From assembly GCA_017626055.1 (NCBI GenBank), contig JAGAJM010000004.1, positions 62,001 through 126,000 of the forward strand: a stretch of DNA of 64,000 nt, written 5' to 3'. Both the position numbers and the translations under genes were made by a program. Position 1 is the stretch's first letter; the number at the start of each line of letters is the position of its first letter. The stretch comes from a bacterium (GTDB lineage: Bacteria; Cyanobacteriota; Vampirovibrionia; Gastranaerophilales; Gastranaerophilaceae). Shown here piece by piece: positions 49,586 through 58,156 of the stretch. The notes under the pieces are model-generated. The model did not search any database, was not told where the DNA came from, and saw only the letters and a program-made list of their open reading frames with translations.

Positions 49586-50077
49586 ATGTATAGAATTGGC
49601 ATTGGATACGATATTCATAAATTAATTGAAGGCAGAGATTTAATTATCGGCGGGGTAAAAATTACCCACGAAATGGGACTTTTGGGTCATTCTGATGCTG
49701 ATGTTTTAATTCATGCATTGATTGATGCAATGCTTGGGGCATTAGCGTTAGATGATATCGGTACACTTTTCCCTGATACAGATCCTCAATATAAGGGAAT
49801 TGATAGTACGATTTTATTAAAAAAGGTTTATGAATATGTGCAAGATAAAGGTTATGCAATAGTAAATATTGATAGTAATATCATTGCGCAGGCTCCAAAG
49901 ATGATGCCTTATATTCCTAAAATGAAAGAAGTTTTATGTAGAATCTTAGATGTAAAACCAGAAGATTTATCAATTAAAGCAAAAACAAAAGAAAAACTAG
50001 ATGCAGTAGGTCAAAAACTTGCAATTGAAGCTAATGCAGTTGTTATGCTTCAAAAACGTATGAAAAAAATGTACTAA
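49586..50077 (+). CDS. ispF: 2-C-methyl-D-erythritol 2,4-cyclodiphosphate synthase
   Basis: IspF cyclises CDP-methylerythritol phosphate in the MEP pathway. Zinc ligands Asp9 and His11 are in GYDIH, followed by GHSDADVLIHALIDA, LFPDTDPQY and the C-terminal IKAKTKEKLDAVGQ. Length 163 fits. It shares the palindromic promoter with the divergent zinc-ribbon gene and overlaps the next convergent gene by four bases. Confidence 0.96.
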   Translation: MYRIGIGYDIHKLIEGRDLIIGGVKITHEMGLLGHSDADVLIHALIDAMLGALALDDIGTLFPDTDPQYKGIDSTILLKKVYEYVQDKGYAIVNIDSNIIAQAPKMMPYIPKMKEVLCRILDVKPEDLSIKAKTKEKLDAVGQKLAIEANAVVMLQKRMKKMY

Positions 50078-50580
50078 CCTCTAAATCTGTCGTTGACATA
50101 ACTCAAAATTGCACCGCCGATTTCTTCGTTTGGGTCAAATAATTGGTTTGGATTATGTGGTTGCATTGAGTTTTGAATAAGCATTTTTACAAGTGGCCCA
50201 AATGCGTCTGGGACTTGGATTTTTCTGTAAATTCCAGCTAAAAAAGTTTGAATATTAGGAGATGTTGTATTGTTAAATCTTGCAAAAATGGGGTACAATT
50301 TGTCAATTCCTTTTGTTCCATCATCAATCATTCTATCCATAATATAAAGAGTTTCTGTGATTTGGGCTTCATTGTTAGAATGGGCTAAAATGTCTGTCAA
50401 ATAAGGCAGAGCATTTTCTTTTTGTTTAACGAAATAATCAACTTCGTTTTTATCATAGATACAATAATTTCTCTCTGGTGTTGGTAATTGGCAGGATGTA
50501 CACGCATAATACGGTACTTGTTGATTTGGTGCAACAAGTTGCGGATGTTGTGGTTGTGTGTATTGAATAGGTTGTATCAT
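50074..50580 (-). CDS. Unrecognised protein, third gene of a three-gene operon, 168 aa
   Basis: Begins with a Gln/Pro-rich tail (MIQPIQYTQPQHPQLVAP), a Cys pair (YACTSCQLPTPERNYC) and then all-helical sequence (NEAQITETLYIMDRMID; FGPLVKMLIQNSMQPH) resembling HEAT-like short repeats. The ATG at 50580 has AGGA upstream. It follows the large membrane protein gene by 22 bases and shares an operon with it. Likely cytoplasmic. The Cys pair may bind zinc with partners from the operon. Confidence 0.68.
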   Translation of the reverse strand: MIQPIQYTQPQHPQLVAPNQQVPYYACTSCQLPTPERNYCIYDKNEVDYFVKQKENALPYLTDILAHSNNEAQITETLYIMDRMIDDGTKGIDKLYPIFARFNNTTSPNIQTFLAGIYRKIQVPDAFGPLVKMLIQNSMQPHNPNQLFDPNEEIGGAILSYVNDRFRG

Positions 50581-50602: not shown

Positions 50603-52105
50603 TTATGAATATACAAATGGAGGTCCGTTTTTGATTTCAAATAGAACATTTTCAGCCATTGATTTAAGTTCGGCTTTTGATTTTTGACCGCTATCTACTT
50701 GTTTATAAAATTCTTCAACAAGAGGTTGAATAGCGGCATCTTTTTTAGATTTGAAGTTGCGAAGTTCGGTTGAAACTAATCGTTTTTGTAAGTCTAACTC
50801 AGTTTCTGCGTTAATCTTTTTCACTTGAACTTCTTTAATTGCTTCCCCTGCTAAAGTTCCACCATAACTGATTGCAGTGATGCCTGTAATTCCTAAAAAC
50901 AGTTGTTTAAATTGAGGATTTGCAGTATCAAGTAGCCAGTTGTAGAAAAATGCACGATAATCGTCAACAAATGAATTGAATGCAGGTTTTGGAGTTCCAT
51001 CACCACCAATATTTGGGTTTACTTTTGTTGTTGATGTGCGGATTTTTTTCAAAATTTTGTTGATGAATATTTCTTTTTCTTCGTCAGTTCCCCATTTCAA
51101 AAGTCCTACTTGTTCTCTGACAAAATCTTCAGAAGCATCAGTTGAGACAAACATATGTTGAAGATTGTATTTGTCGGTTTCCATTGTTTCAGTTGTTGAA
51201 TTTTTTACAATGGTTTTAATTGCGTTTTTAGCACCTTCCAAGCCTTCTTGGATATTTAGTTTACTTTTTGATAGATTTCTCAAAGATAAAAATCCAAGTC
51301 CAACAATTCCTATAACTGTACCAATACCTAAGATGATGTTCCCTGTGCTAAATTTCTTTTCATCTGGTTGTTTTTTATCTGAGGTGAATGGGATTGTTGA
51401 GAATTTGTTTTTACCAAAATTTGGTAAAATTGGTTCATCATCTGGTGTTATGTATTTTTCAAAATCTGTTGCGTATTTTGACAGCATACTTCTAATAATT
51501 TGCATTTTTCCAGAGAAAGATTGAGTTTCAACTGCAACAAGATTTTCTTGTAAATTCTTTTGAATATTTGCTTCTTTACGTTTTACCCAAACGTCTTTAT
51601 ACCCATCAAAGAAAGTTTTGCCCATAAATGCCATAGCAGAAAGAGTTAGAACCCCACTTCCTGCAATGAATGTTTTTCTTCCTGGGCTTTGTATCATTTG
51701 ATAAATTACTTGGAAAGTTTCATTGCTTAATTGAACGTTTCTGGTTACCGCAGGAAGCCATTTTTCTTCTGCTAAGTTACGTGCAATCTTTGCACTACGA
51801 TTTACAAAGCCAGTCATTAGAGCAACTGCACCCATTACCCCAAGAGCGATTGCGCTTAGTGGTACAAGTTTTTTGTCAATGATTTTTTTATCTTCATACA
51901 ATTCTGTTGGCATTGGTACATCGTCAGAAATCATATAAGAATCTTTTGTGTCGCATAATGTGATGCAGTCTTTACATTCTTTATCTTTTACAAGGTTATT
52001 AACTAACACACCCTCTTTTGTAGAAACACTGTTTTTACGTTGAGAGTTTGTTAGGTTGCGTTGTTGGCGTCTGTTTTCCGCATCGTTTAACGGATTAATG
52101 TGCAT
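50603..52105 (-). CDS. Large multi-pass membrane protein, second gene of the operon, 500 aa
   Basis: A basic Asn/Arg/Gln-rich N-terminus with a CKDCITLC cluster (residues about 44-51) leads into hydrophobic segments: LVPLSAIALGVMGAVALMTGF, TFIAGSGVLTLSAMAFMG, ILGIGTVIGIVGLGFLSL and LFLGITGITAISYGG. Between them are long polar stretches, and the C-terminal 90 residues are helical and charged. The start overlaps the first gene of the operon by 11 bases. No transporter or enzyme family is recognised. Confidence 0.7.
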   Translation of the reverse strand: MHINPLNDAENRRQQRNLTNSQRKNSVSTKEGVLVNNLVKDKECKDCITLCDTKDSYMISDDVPMPTELYEDKKIIDKKLVPLSAIALGVMGAVALMTGFVNRSAKIARNLAEEKWLPAVTRNVQLSNETFQVIYQMIQSPGRKTFIAGSGVLTLSAMAFMGKTFFDGYKDVWVKRKEANIQKNLQENLVAVETQSFSGKMQIIRSMLSKYATDFEKYITPDDEPILPNFGKNKFSTIPFTSDKKQPDEKKFSTGNIILGIGTVIGIVGLGFLSLRNLSKSKLNIQEGLEGAKNAIKTIVKNSTTETMETDKYNLQHMFVSTDASEDFVREQVGLLKWGTDEEKEIFINKILKKIRTSTTKVNPNIGGDGTPKPAFNSFVDDYRAFFYNWLLDTANPQFKQLFLGITGITAISYGGTLAGEAIKEVQVKKINAETELDLQKRLVSTELRNFKSKKDAAIQPLVEEFYKQVDSGQKSKAELKSMAENVLFEIKNGPPFVYS

Positions 52106-52802
52106 CCTGTTCTATGTCCTTTTCGTCTTCTCCTTTGAGTTTTTTATACAGTTTGTGTATAAAGGTTTTTAATTCAAAGGTTCTTTTTGCTTCATCGATT
52201 TTTTTGTCTTCGTCATCGGTTTCTTGTGTTCCGAAAACAAAGAAGAGAGATTTTAGTTTCTTTTTGGTTTCAGTGAAGAATTTAGATACTTTTTCTTCTA
52301 CTGCGGCTTTTAATTCGCCATATACTGCTGCTAACTTATCTGAAATTTCTGCAAATTTTTGGCTAACCATTTGTGTAAAGTTTGCGATTGTTGTTGGAAG
52401 ATTTTGGATTACTGTTAAAACTCTACCAACAATCTGAGTTAGCACAAAGTTTACTGGTTTTGCAATTATTGCAGGCATTGTGTTATTAATCATTGTTGCA
52501 AATTCAACAAGTCTTTGGTGCGTATTTGCGATGTTTTTTTGAAAGTTAGCAAGTGCTTGTAGGTGGTTTTGTTGTGCTTGTTGAGCTTGTGCTCTAGCGT
52601 GCTTTTGTGCTCTTAGCATAGCTCCTATTGCAGCACATTGGTTGTATGACATTTCACCTACATTTCTTGGTGTGTCCCTTTTAGTAGTAGAATTTCCTCC
52701 TGCCATTCCGTTACAGATTGGGCAAGCCCCAAGCGGAAGTCCGTGTGGACATGTTCCAACTTTTGCACTATGTGGACGTACTGCTGTTGATCCTAATGAC
52801 AT
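52095..52802 (-). CDS. Zinc-ribbon-leading coiled-coil protein, first gene of the operon, 235 aa
   Basis: The N-terminal CPHGLPLGACPICNG is a compact C-x8-C-x2-C type zinc-binding motif with a His. A Gln/Ala-rich helix (AQKHARAQAQQAQQNH) and a long apparently amphipathic helical region (VNFVLTQIVGRVLTVIQNL; FAEISDKLAAVYGELKAAV) follow, ending in an acidic/basic tail. It has no TM helix. A promoter with a dyad over the -35 and a hairpin leader precede it. Function unknown; the co-transcribed second gene is a membrane protein. Confidence 0.72.
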   Translation of the reverse strand: MSLGSTAVRPHSAKVGTCPHGLPLGACPICNGMAGGNSTTKRDTPRNVGEMSYNQCAAIGAMLRAQKHARAQAQQAQQNHLQALANFQKNIANTHQRLVEFATMINNTMPAIIAKPVNFVLTQIVGRVLTVIQNLPTTIANFTQMVSQKFAEISDKLAAVYGELKAAVEEKVSKFFTETKKKLKSLFFVFGTQETDDEDKKIDEAKRTFELKTFIHKLYKKLKGEDEKDIEQDAH

Positions 52803-52803
52803 T

Positions 52804-52831
52804 AAAAAATCCTCTAGCTATTCTTAGAGGA
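52804..52831 (-). promoter_or_regulatory. Attenuator-like hairpin with sequestered ribosome site
   Basis: On the minus strand TCCTCTA (52825-52831) pairs with TAGAGGA (52810-52816) and is followed by TTTTTTA and then the ATG. The structure looks like a Rho-independent terminator, and its 3' arm is also the Shine-Dalgarno of the gene at 52802. A 26-codon ORF (52854-52934, GTG start) precedes it. Confidence 0.72.
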
Positions 52832-52953
52832 CACTTCAAGAAATTTTTGCGTTCTATCCAAAATGCACGTGGATGAGACATTTTCTTTGAGTGTTCCGAC
52901 TTTTACGGCTGCGGCGACAGTTGAAGATATTCACTTCATTTCCTCTTGTTATG

Positions 52954-52988
52954 ATAGTAATTTAAGCATGGTTCTACGTCAAACCATG
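52954..52988 (-). promoter_or_regulatory. Promoter with a dyad over the -35, upstream of the three-gene operon
   Basis: TTGACG (52977-52982) and TACTAT (52954-52959) are 17 bases apart on the minus strand. CATGGTT (52967-52973) and AACCATG (52982-52988) form a perfect dyad centred on the -35, a likely repressor operator. The transcript would have a leader of about 145 bases. Confidence 0.72.
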
Positions 52989-53010: not shown

Positions 53011-54312
53011 TTACATATTAAATTCTTTGATAAATTCGTTTACCCATTTGATTAATTGTGGAATTTCGTATGGCTTTGGTAAGTACAAATCTGCACCTGT
53101 GTTTAGAACTAATTCTTTATCATGAATAATTGATGTTGCAATGATTTTTGAAGATTTAAACTTTTCTTGTTGTTTTAATTGGTAGCAAAGATTTAATCCA
53201 TTTTTCTTTTCTAAATCACCAGCATCAACAACAATTAGTGCTGGAATTTCTTCATCTTCTGGAATTGCGTATTTGTCTATAATTTTTGTTTGGTAACCTT
53301 GAAGATTTAGGATTGTATGAAGAAGTGTACTTAGAGCTTCGTCGGTTTCAAAAATCATAATTTTGTTATTGTATTCTCTTTCGAAAATTGAATTTTCTCC
53401 AACAATTTGAGGGCGTTCCATTAGGTAATTTGAACGACAAGGGACATCTGCCATTGTATGGATATGAATTAGTGAATTTAGAACTTGGGTTGTGTCTTTG
53501 TATTGTGAAAATTCGTTTGTAATTACACTAATTGTTGAGTGAACAAAATTTGCTCTGCGACCTGCGTATTCATCCCCTTGTAAAATCATATAACCTCTGT
53601 CAAGGTCGTGTTCTGCATAAAATTTATTTGCAACAGAATCAAATGCGAAGATTAAAAATCTAGCTAAACGTTCAGCTTTTAGAGTGTCTGTGATTACAAA
53701 GAAAATGTTTTCTGAGATTTCTCCAATGTAATCGTTTTCGTTTAGTGAAGCCTTAATAATGGCACTGTATGTTTGCAATAGTTTGTCAGATGCTAGTTGA
53801 GTGTATGCTTGTTTATAGCTTTCAAAATTTTCGATACTAATATAAAGCATCGCCCATTGGCTATCTTCAGAAAGTTTTCTTTTGATAGCTCTCATTGTAT
53901 AATTTTTATTTGGTAATTCTTGTTTCGAATCTAAGTTTGATTCGTATTCACGACGAAGATGAGCGGTCATTCTAACTTTAAATTCTTCAGAATTTACAGG
54001 TTCTGATAGAAAATCATCCGCACCGCTTTCAAGAACTTTGATTCTATCATTAAAATCTGCGGATTTTGACATTGCAACAATAATTGGTCGCATGTTGTAA
54101 GTTAATGCACGAACCTGTTTGCAAAAATCAGACAAATCATCGTCAAAACTATCTGAAATGATTATCAAATCAGGTTCTTTATCCTGAATAAGTTTGATAG
54201 AAGTTATCAAATCTTTTGAGATAATAACTTTGTTTGTTTCAGATTCAAGAAGTTTTTTATATTTTGTAGAAAGTTCTAACCTTTTGTCGATGATAAGTGT
54301 TACTGATTGCAT
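53011..54312 (-). CDS. Double-receiver response regulator with degenerate GGDEF-like middle
   Basis: The N-terminal 125 residues form a receiver domain (DLIIISDSFDD, then KPV-type switch at FLSEPVNSEEF), the middle about 180 residues look like a degenerate GGDEF domain (RAIKRKLSEDSQWAMLYISIENF, with ISENIFFVITD where GGDEF should be), and a second receiver (ALIVVDAGD, YLPKPYE) ends the protein. Loss of the GGDEF signature suggests no cyclase activity. Encoded just after a histidine kinase with a 13-base overlap, so it is probably its partner. Confidence 0.8.
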   Translation of the reverse strand: MQSVTLIIDKRLELSTKYKKLLESETNKVIISKDLITSIKLIQDKEPDLIIISDSFDDDLSDFCKQVRALTYNMRPIIVAMSKSADFNDRIKVLESGADDFLSEPVNSEEFKVRMTAHLRREYESNLDSKQELPNKNYTMRAIKRKLSEDSQWAMLYISIENFESYKQAYTQLASDKLLQTYSAIIKASLNENDYIGEISENIFFVITDTLKAERLARFLIFAFDSVANKFYAEHDLDRGYMILQGDEYAGRRANFVHSTISVITNEFSQYKDTTQVLNSLIHIHTMADVPCRSNYLMERPQIVGENSIFEREYNNKIMIFETDEALSTLLHTILNLQGYQTKIIDKYAIPEDEEIPALIVVDAGDLEKKNGLNLCYQLKQQEKFKSSKIIATSIIHDKELVLNTGADLYLPKPYEIPQLIKWVNEFIKEFNM

Positions 54313-55046
54313 TTTATCCTCGCTTGTTCTTCGATATTTAATATCGGGAATTTTAGTGTGAATGTGATTTGAGCAAGTTCACTGTTGTTTTCTAGTGGTG
54401 TAGATTCAACAGAAATTTCGCCTCTCATTTTTTCAACAAGGCTCTTTGTAATGTATAATCCTAGTCCACTTCCTTGGACTTTTCTTGTCAGAGGGTTATC
54501 AATTCTTGCAAATTTTGTGAAAATTTTTTCATAATCTTCTTGTGCGATTGAGATTCCTATATTAGAAATTTTAATTTCAACATTGTTATTGTTTATCCCT
54601 GTTGTGATTAGAGTTTTGAAAATCTGAGTGGAATATTTTGCACTGTTTTCGATTAGATTTGTCAGAATTTGTTGAAACTTGTCTTTATCAACATAAATGT
54701 TTGGGACATTTGGATTGTGCTCAAATTCAAAAACTTGTGTTGGATATTGAGTTTTGATTATCGAAATAACTTGTTCGATTGCAGATTTTGTACTAAGTTC
54801 ATTAAATACAAAGTGGTTGTTTACCCCTTGTAATTTAGTTACAGAAAGCATATTTTCAACTAAGTGAATAAGCCTATTGGATTGTTCTTCGATGATTTTA
54901 AGGAACTTTTTTTTGCTTTCATCATCTAATTTATCCCAAGAAGAAAGCATAGTTTGAGAGAACCCTCGAATAGAAGTTAAAGGAGTTCTTAATTCGTGGC
55001 TCACTGTTGAAATAAAATCTTCGTAATTTTGCTCAATGTTATCCAT
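54300..55046 (-). CDS. Sensor-less cytoplasmic histidine kinase
   Basis: HisKA is present at the N-terminus with the H-box FISTVSHELRTPLTSIRGFS, followed by the HATPase N-box (LTNLIENSAKYS) and G2 motif (VQGSGLGLYITKSL). There is no TM helix and no input domain. The first glycine box reads ISNIGISIA where DNGxGI is usual, so the adenine-binding Asp is Asn. It may still bind ATP weakly, or need a partner. It overlaps the double-receiver gene downstream. Confidence 0.85.
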   Translation of the reverse strand: MDNIEQNYEDFISTVSHELRTPLTSIRGFSQTMLSSWDKLDDESKKKFLKIIEEQSNRLIHLVENMLSVTKLQGVNNHFVFNELSTKSAIEQVISIIKTQYPTQVFEFEHNPNVPNIYVDKDKFQQILTNLIENSAKYSTQIFKTLITTGINNNNVEIKISNIGISIAQEDYEKIFTKFARIDNPLTRKVQGSGLGLYITKSLVEKMRGEISVESTPLENNSELAQITFTLKFPILNIEEQARIKCNQ

Positions 55047-56959: not shown

Positions 56960-58156
56960 TTATTTCCTAAAAACGTTTAATGCTCTATCTAAAATGCCTA
57001 AGCAATATGAGATGGTGATTCCGTAATTTGTCATTGGAACTTGTTTTTGTGATGAAATCAAAATTCTTGAAAGAATTTCTCTGCGGTTTGTCATACAAGC
57101 TCCGCAGTGTATGATTAAACTATATTGACTAATTTCAGGGAAATCGTGTCCTGAATAATGTTCAATGACAAGCTCTTTTCCTGTTTTTTGTTTCAAAAGT
57201 CGTGGAATTTTAACTTTTCCAATATCATCTTCGATTGCGTGGTGTGTGCAACTCTCAAGGATAAGAACTTTATCTCCGTCTTTTAAGTTTTCAATAGCTT
57301 TTGCACCTTTTTCAAACTCGGATAAATCACCTTTTAATCTTGCAAAAAGAATTGAAAAAGATGTTAGCGGAATTTCTTTTGGGACAATTGCATCAACTGT
57401 TTTAAACGCTTGAGAATCTGTTATAACAAGACTCGGTGGATTTTTAAGATTACCCAGTGTATCTTGTAATTCAGATTCTTTAACTACGATTGTTATACAG
57501 TTTGAATCAAGCAAATCCCTGATTGTCTGAACTTGAGGTAAAATAAGTCTGCCTTTTGGTGCTTCTTTATCGATTGGTGTAACTAAAATTACTGTACTTT
57601 TTTCTGGAATTAAATCACCTGCAATCTTTGGTGAATTTACAAATTCTTCAGGTAATAATTTTACTAAAACCTCTTTAAATCTATGAGTTAAATTATCATC
57701 AGTTTTTGCTGATGTAATTAAAATATGAGGACAAATATTGTTTAATTCAGCTAAAGTATTATCATTTACCCTTTTGATATCTATTTTGTTAACTACAATT
57801 ATAAATGGTATTTTTAACTCATTAAATTTTTCGATTAAGTCTTTTTCGAAATCATCTATGCCGTTATAGTCGCAGATAATTACGGCAACATCTGTTCTGT
57901 TCAAAACTTTTAGAGTTTTTTCTACACGATCTTTACCGAGTTCTGATAAGTCATTAATTCCTGCTGTATCTAAAAATGTCACAGGTCCAATAGGTAAAAG
58001 TTCCATTGATTTTTCGACAACATCTGTTGTTGTTCCTGCAATATCTGACACAATAGAAATATCTTGATTGGTAATTCTATTTAAAAATGATGACTTACCA
58101 ACATTTGTTTTCCCCAAAATACCGATATGAAGACGCATAGATTTTAGTGATTTCAT
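56960..58156 (-). CDS. hydF: [FeFe]-hydrogenase maturation GTPase HydF
   Basis: HydF is the scaffold GTPase on which the H-cluster subcluster is assembled. The N-terminal GTPase has GILGKTNVGKSSFLN, GTTTDVVEKSMEL, FLDTAG and NKID. The C-terminal cluster site is visible as the C-x-H...C-x2-C pattern (ESCTHHAIEDD, HCGACMTNRRE). Length 398 is typical. ATG follows GAGGG. Together with hydG it shows that the organism builds an [FeFe]-hydrogenase. Confidence 0.94.
   Translation of the reverse strand: MKSLKSMRLHIGILGKTNVGKSSFLNRITNQDISIVSDIAGTTTDVVEKSMELLPIGPVTFLDTAGINDLSELGKDRVEKTLKVLNRTDVAVIICDYNGIDDFEKDLIEKFNELKIPFIIVVNKIDIKRVNDNTLAELNNICPHILITSAKTDDNLTHRFKEVLVKLLPEEFVNSPKIAGDLIPEKSTVILVTPIDKEAPKGRLILPQVQTIRDLLDSNCITIVVKESELQDTLGNLKNPPSLVITDSQAFKTVDAIVPKEIPLTSFSILFARLKGDLSEFEKGAKAIENLKDGDKVLILESCTHHAIEDDIGKVKIPRLLKQKTGKELVIEHYSGHDFPEISQYSLIIHCGACMTNRREILSRILISSQKQVPMTNYGITISYCLGILDRALNVFRK

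Follow-up and report, generated by a model that had tools for sequence, protein, structure and literature searches.

A putative compact cobalamin riboswitch preceding a conserved three-gene operon in Gastranaerophilales

The operon and its conservation

The window, that is, the whole stretch of 64,000 nucleotides that was analysed, carries three consecutive genes on its minus strand, and we refer to the genes and their products as P1, P2 and P3.

52095-52802, minus strand: P1, the first gene, 235 aa, with a CPHGxPxGACPIC motif and relatives in 106 of 117 genomes of the order
50603-52105, minus strand: P2, 500 aa, with two clear hydrophobic segments and no family assignment
50074-50580, minus strand: P3, 168 aa from a conserved Met (the ORF opens at 50649), predicted to consist of HEAT/ARM-like helices

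The CPHGxPxGACPIC motif of P1 is N-terminal and its Cys56 is invariant; judging from the C-x-H...C-x-x-C pattern, the motif could bind a metal. P2 has many invariant residues in its C-terminal part, and its structure model is poor (pTM 0.37). The model of P3 consists of HEAT/ARM-like helices (pTM 0.75) and matched no PDB entry at E 0.001. Family profile searches with the three proteins, which included the known B12 importer families, gave nothing above the cut-off, and no transporter fold was recognised among them by profiles, solved structures or folds. Weak Pfam matches for single P1 members were set aside.

The gene order P1-P2-P3 is kept in 78 of 80 related loci, whose flanking genes differ. 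In the window, the operon is preceded at 53011-55046 (minus strand) by genes for a histidine kinase and a receiver-GGDEF-receiver protein, which adjoin the operon in some relatives only. Further away, at 56960-58156 (minus strand), lies HydF, the [FeFe] hydrogenase maturation GTPase (TIGR03918, 542 bits). A record titled Muribaculaceae (L112, 5501-6151) contains the operon at 70% identity to the P1 of the window, reflecting either a mis-binned contig or a transfer.

The Rfam family RF01689 (AdoCbl-II), which also matches the leader of the window, accompanies the operon throughout the order. Among the matches listed, 108 of the 117 genomes have an RF01689 match, above the cut-off in 91, and the presence of P1 and that of RF01689 are associated (Fisher P = 0.0003, with the genomes taken as independent and kinship ignored). 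At least 98 of 110 P1 places have a same-strand match less than 600 nt upstream. Beyond the matches listed, the aptamer is visible by eye in L165 (genome G061) and L164 (genome G006). Long insertions in the aptamer loops, which hid some riboswitches from the family search, occur in the P6 loop of L165, L119 and L122 and in the P4 loop of L164.

In excerpts of the literature on Gastranaerophilales, Melainabacteria or Vampirovibrionia with B12, and of that on RF01689, no B12 riboswitch upstream of P1-P2-P3 is mentioned. Literature searches combining Gastranaerophilales with riboswitch or with ribonucleotide reductase found nothing, and an excerpt of PMC4040986 has nothing on B12 use.

The leader and its aptamer

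The leader and its promoter contain the following elements, in which helices named P3 to P13 are parts of the RNA.

52967-52988, minus strand: dyad CATGGTT (52988-52982) / AACCATG (52973-52967) over the -35 element, exact at 7/7 positions in the window
52954-52982, minus strand: predicted sigma-70-type promoter, TTGACG (52982-52977), 17-nt spacer, TACTAT (52959-52954)
52882-52960, minus strand: cobalamin riboswitch aptamer, RF01689 AdoCbl-II, 40.9 bits against a gathering score of 36.5
52941-52947, minus strand: aptamer strand AAGAGGA, whose GAG pairs with CUC (52891-52889) in helix P3; its AGAGGA is a copy of the Shine-Dalgarno (SD) sequence and can pair with the anti-SD strand (helix Y)
52909-52920, minus strand: P5-L5, the kissing partner of L13, with covarying L5-L13 pairs in 67 leaders
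52856-52874, minus strand: P13-L13 hairpin, AUCCA-CGUGCAUUU-UGGAU, with both-sided changes at all five P13 pairs in relatives
52831-52843, minus strand: 3' strand of helix X (UUUCUU..AGUGU), which pairs with ACACUC..AAAGAAA at 52894-52882
52804-52831, minus strand: SD-masking, terminator-like hairpin, anti-SD UCCUCU (52831-52826), SD AGAGGA (52815-52810), U6 (52809-52804)

The promoter and the leader of about 145 nt that had been read here in the earlier note are present, with transcription predicted to start near 52947 and the P1 ATG at 52802. Upstream of the aptamer, 73 of 80 relatives have TTGAC within 70 nt, at a spacing of 17 in 69 of those 73, and in the 73 the distance from the end of the -10 element to the aptamer GAGG is 7-14 nt. 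Taken by itself, the leader folds with an unremarkable energy (z = -1.15).

RF01689 was the one match above threshold in an Rfam search of the whole window (E 1.2e-8 when the region was searched alone). Given that this match exceeds the gathering score, the leader described in the earlier note is, near certainly, a riboswitch as judged by family membership. The outer closing pairs of the family (model positions 1-6 with 76-81) are incompletely formed, two of the six being non-standard, and their 5' side overlaps the predicted -10 element. These outermost Rfam pairs fall on the -10 element and are probably not transcribed, provided that the predicted start holds. Among the 80 P1 leaders the closing stem measures 3 bp (74 leaders) or 4 bp (6 leaders), as compared to a range of 2-12 bp for the 18 riboswitches examined elsewhere in the order (from 21 rows, L151, L154 with two matches, and L158 were excluded and L002 was added). 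Such a short stem fits a strand that needs to be easily released. In the leader alignment, 99.0% of the cells of helix P3 are paired.

The kissing contact between L5 and L13, a mark of corrinoid riboswitches, is found by covariation in 67 leaders and is weak in the window itself, where two of the four pairs are standard, namely the inner G-C and C-G. Mutual information between the loops of the 67 leaders is highest for two antiparallel pairs that adjoin each other (0.48 and 0.42). The covariation of the four-pair kissing helix was 0.180, against 0.085 after shuffling (0/500) and at most 0.092 when the helix was slid along. This alignment of 67 rows was made from the 80 leaders by removing 6 near-duplicates (95% rule) and the leaders with large inserts (L079, L098, L099, L109, L119, L135 and L138), and the window replaces L063.

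The form of cobalamin that is sensed could differ from that in the family name. According to an excerpt of PMC11260477, class IIb (AdoCbl-selective) cobalamin riboswitches are distinguished by a UCU motif in J6/3. This UCU is absent from J6/3 in all 80 leaders, which have AACAC (56), AAUGC (18), AAUAC (4) or AACGC (2). The persistence of P1 and its riboswitch in genomes that lack the adenosyltransferase CobA is the sole hint toward class IIa, with its preference for methyl- or hydroxocobalamin, and raises the possibility that the switch senses a non-adenosyl cobalamin.

In the earlier note the remaining features made up two of up to three layers of control, the third being the SD hairpin. Spelled out, these two would be repression through the -35 dyad and attenuation, sensed by way of arginine tRNA, through an Arg-rich leader peptide. 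All three are readable in the window, and the third is conserved, as described below. The other two fare differently. The dyad is indeed exact in the window; among the 73 relatives, it is 7/7 in one, as compared to 4.7% of base-shuffled controls. Being unconserved, at or below the shuffled rate, it was rejected as an operator and is probably a chance feature. The 26-codon ORF (52934-52854, minus strand) has the GTG start and the length claimed for it; however, it encodes five Arg and two Lys rather than seven Arg. Its GTG sits within the conserved P4/L4 of the aptamer and recurs at that position in 79 of 80 relatives. The length of the ORF in these ranges between 1 and 279 codons, with 26 codons in 5 of the 79. 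A short ORF with regulatory codons is thus not conserved, and a leader peptide or attenuator was rejected; on this comparison of leaders we regard the ORF as a by-product of the aptamer. Threefold control is therefore highly improbable. What had been observed is partly confirmed and the interpretation partly supported, and the regulation appears better explained by one device, a cobalamin riboswitch, which had not been recognised.

The SD hairpin and a proposed strand exchange

The arms of the SD hairpin are UCCUCUA and UAGAGGA (52831-52825 and 52816-52810); the 3' arm is the SD itself, followed by U6 and the start codon. This GC-containing hairpin with a subsequent U-run has the layout of an intrinsic terminator, and the description given in the earlier note proved accurate. 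We searched relatives for hairpins of at least 6 bp with 3 GC, 5 U of 7 thereafter, and no more than 40 nt to the start, with dinucleotide shuffles as controls. Such a hairpin with a U-run was found in 72 of 80 relatives, where shuffling gave 4.8; for the divergent loci the figures are 11 of 21 and 1.9. Two of those 11, in G112 and G076, lie 34-39 nt from the start, have long loops and may be chance. Of 80 P1 genes, 75 have T5 no more than 9 nt from the start, as compared to 2 of 67 ORFs of the window (one being P1 itself), 0 of 73 P2 starts and 0 of 54 P3 starts.

Covariation of the hairpin, the check that had been proposed for it, was not detected within the main clade, where both arms are near invariant; the sequence barely varies there, which accounts for this result. 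In divergent genera, on the other hand, the arms are replaced, and the hairpin, the U-run and their position are retained. The hairpin ends 6-8 nt upstream of the start in G084, G103, G094, G105, G091 and G081. For G006 and G012 this distance is 20-21 nt, which leaves a separate SD, so that the terminator stands apart from the SD.

RNAalifold, run on the leader alignment without a given structure, paired GAGGA of the aptamer strand with UCCUC of the anti-SD, which is helix Y. Because helix Y uses the GAG of helix P3 and the CCUC of the SD hairpin, it excludes both, as a switch requires. When transcripts of the window were folded, the probability of helix Y was ~1.0 in those ending before the SD, and the SD hairpin reached at least 0.9 after the SD had emerged. 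In truncated leaders of the 80 relatives, the probability of helix Y exceeded 0.5 in 74 and 0.9 in 65. Forcing helix P3 lowered the openness of the SD below that of the free fold in 78 of 80 leaders, 69 of these with P3 correctly placed (the P3 strand was misplaced in 11 of the 80). At equilibrium, full-length free leaders mostly close the SD (median probability of an open SD 0.06), and the ON state would therefore need kinetic control. The adjoining helix X shows modest covariation in its ACAC/GUGU part (0.312 against 0.273 shuffled, 1/500).

From the computed elements, namely the aptamer, P13 with its covarying L5-L13 pairs, and the SD hairpin with its U-run, we infer the following strand exchange between an ON and an OFF state. 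Without cobalamin, AAGAGGA, the copy of the SD, would pair with the anti-SD UCCUCU directly upon transcription of the latter; helix X would form beside helix Y, and the SD would remain open. When cobalamin is bound, GAG would be drawn into helix P3 (GAG/CUC) and L5 would kiss L13. The freed anti-SD strand would then close the SD hairpin, blocking ribosomes and probably also causing termination at U6. Since cobalamin would thus switch the leader off, P1-P2-P3 are proposed to be made only under corrinoid scarcity. The OFF logic is likely, as is a combination of ribosome-site masking with termination, and strand exchange through helix Y is plausible from the folding models. Taken together, we hold with good confidence that this RNA is an OFF riboswitch of the AdoCbl-II (RF01689) kind that senses cobalamin. 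With helix Y, it would be a compact switch in which a strand of the aptamer mimics the SD.

The same riboswitch might instead be purely translational, with P13 and the kissing loop as its working parts; helix Y would then be a coincidence of two purine-rich motifs and the U-run a spacer. P13 and the kissing loop are the best-supported elements of the leader, and the E. coli btuB and env8 riboswitches act through P13 and a ribosome-binding-site hairpin, as described in an excerpt of PMC10653944. Helix Y, in turn, gave no detectable covariation in the leader alignment, and part of the GAGG-CCUC complementarity follows of necessity from the SD and from the purine-rich core of the aptamer. Among eight divergent leaders folded before the 3' arm, Y-like pairing formed in two (G105 and G081), which confines helix Y to part of the family; the leaders of G006 and G012 pair their terminator arm with the P13/L13 region. 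Against a purely translational switch, P13 and the SD hairpin share no bases here and would have to be linked by a further strand, the U-run is much more frequent than in the background, and in G006 and G012 the terminator is separate from the SD. We consider this alternative the less likely, and favour the strand exchange through helix Y.

B12 physiology, operon function and known systems

A second RF01689 match in the genome of the window, at a sub-threshold 35 bits, lies directly upstream of an nrdD-like gene (L002 1501-1581; G000:C20:236157-236237, plus strand), suggesting that B12 probably represses a B12-independent ribonucleotide reductase there. Elsewhere in the order, RF01689 riboswitches precede nrdD, metE and BtuB-like genes, the usual targets of B12 OFF switches according to an excerpt of PMC3766115; these genes fell below the family cut-offs because only gene fragments were scanned. 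One such riboswitch stands before a BtuB-like gene with a FecCD permease gene ~2 kb further on (L149, G007:C4:134077-136155), in a genome that also has P1.

The need for B12 was surveyed in 21 genomes, comprising that of the window, 12 others of its genus and 8 of the order. NrdJ, the B12-dependent ribonucleotide reductase, is present in 19 of the 21 (732 bits in the genome of the window; 11 of 13 in the genus), and the adenosyltransferase CobA in 18. The genome of the window has two CobA/BtuR copies (G000:C23:24353-24880 and G000:C5:60195-60716), and most relatives have two as well. Neither a PduO-type adenosyltransferase nor the MetH B12-binding_2 domain was found in any of the 21, and PF02310 gave no more than weak matches in the genome of the window. 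A BtuC-type FecCD permease was detected in 3 of 21 genomes (2 over the cut-off) and a TonB plug likewise in 3 (2 over the cut-off), and the corrin-ring enzyme CbiC in 2; none of these was found in the 13 genomes of the genus. By this gene content, the species appears to use AdoCbl and not to make it, and to do without the best-known importer parts, as far as the FecCD permease and the TonB plug show.

Given that B12 appears to be needed and the known importers sought were not found, the three proteins are candidates for corrinoid acquisition. That they help the cell to acquire or handle corrinoid is a claim separate from the riboswitch and weaker than it, to which we give slightly less than an even chance. 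A fuller version is more doubtful still. It holds that P1-P2-P3 may be a previously undescribed corrinoid acquisition system of Gastranaerophilales, a membrane-associated complex that unites a protein with the C-x-H/C-x-x-C pattern, one of the membrane and one that is HEAT-like. This complex would replace BtuB/BtuCDF in bacteria that need B12 and cannot make it. The riboswitch in control of it would have no outer closing stem, and within its aptamer a decoy of the ribosome-binding site would compete for the same anti-SD strand.

Several observations count against uptake. CobA is lacking in 22 of the 117 genomes (G115 and G016 assigned by elimination), and P1 is kept in 18 of these 22, for example in G014, G042, G047, G084 and G089; P1 and CobA show no significant association (P = 0.22). 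G070 and G119 have no match to NrdJ or CobA, and G070 nevertheless has P1 and the riboswitch. The importer search covered the FecCD permease and the TonB plug, and importers of the ECF type may still be present. Conceivably, though at somewhat under even odds in our judgement, the operon is controlled by B12 and serves another purpose. It could provide a B12-independent substitute, handle cobalt or another metal, or fulfil an envelope function that is turned off when corrinoid is plentiful. B12 regulons also include isozymes, as nrdD and metE here, and, in an excerpt of PMC3766115, cobalt transporters; the C-x-H...C-x-x-C of P1 could bind metal, and the missing transporter fold and the persistence of P1 without CobA would be accounted for. 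However, with no match to CbiC in any of the 13 genomes of the genus, there would be no point in taking up cobalt to synthesise corrin there, NrdJ in 11 of the 13 calls for an import route, and P1-P3 bear no likeness to any enzyme family. Few functional clues from sequence are stronger than control by a B12 riboswitch, which here singles out three uncharacterised proteins encoded by an order-wide operon. B12 acquisition by these gut bacteria thereby becomes directly testable.

Import through BtuB and BtuCDF has counterparts in the order, as RF01689 riboswitches of G007 and G009 are followed by BtuB-like and FecCD genes, whereas P1-P2-P3 have no similarity to this importer or to other families. 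The riboswitch has in common with AdoCbl-II, or AdoCbl-variant, RF01689 (listed in an excerpt of PMC2864571) an aptamer above the gathering score, the P3-P6 core and the L5-L13 kissing contact. It differs from other RF01689 riboswitches in the narrow 3-4 bp range of its closing stem (2-12 bp in others of the order), in outer Rfam pairs that fall on the promoter, and in a separate SD/terminator hairpin downstream of P13. With the metE and ppe2 leaders of M. tuberculosis, as far as an excerpt of PMC11260477 describes them, it shares a B12 riboswitch, translational OFF control and a short leader ORF. The ORF is unconserved here, and it starts inside the aptamer, whereas the translated uORF of ppe2 lies downstream of it. 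Corrinoid riboswitches that combine P13 with a terminator or ribosome-binding-site hairpin, such as those of P. megaterium metE and E. coli btuB, have, in an excerpt of PMC10653944, in common with the present leader the OFF logic, a kissing loop that stabilises P13, and mutually exclusive platform helices; the leaders of G006 and G012 resemble the P13-antiterminator type described there. In contrast to these systems, the ON helix proposed for the main clade uses an aptamer strand that copies the SD, and a single hairpin would serve both as the terminator and as the mask of the SD.
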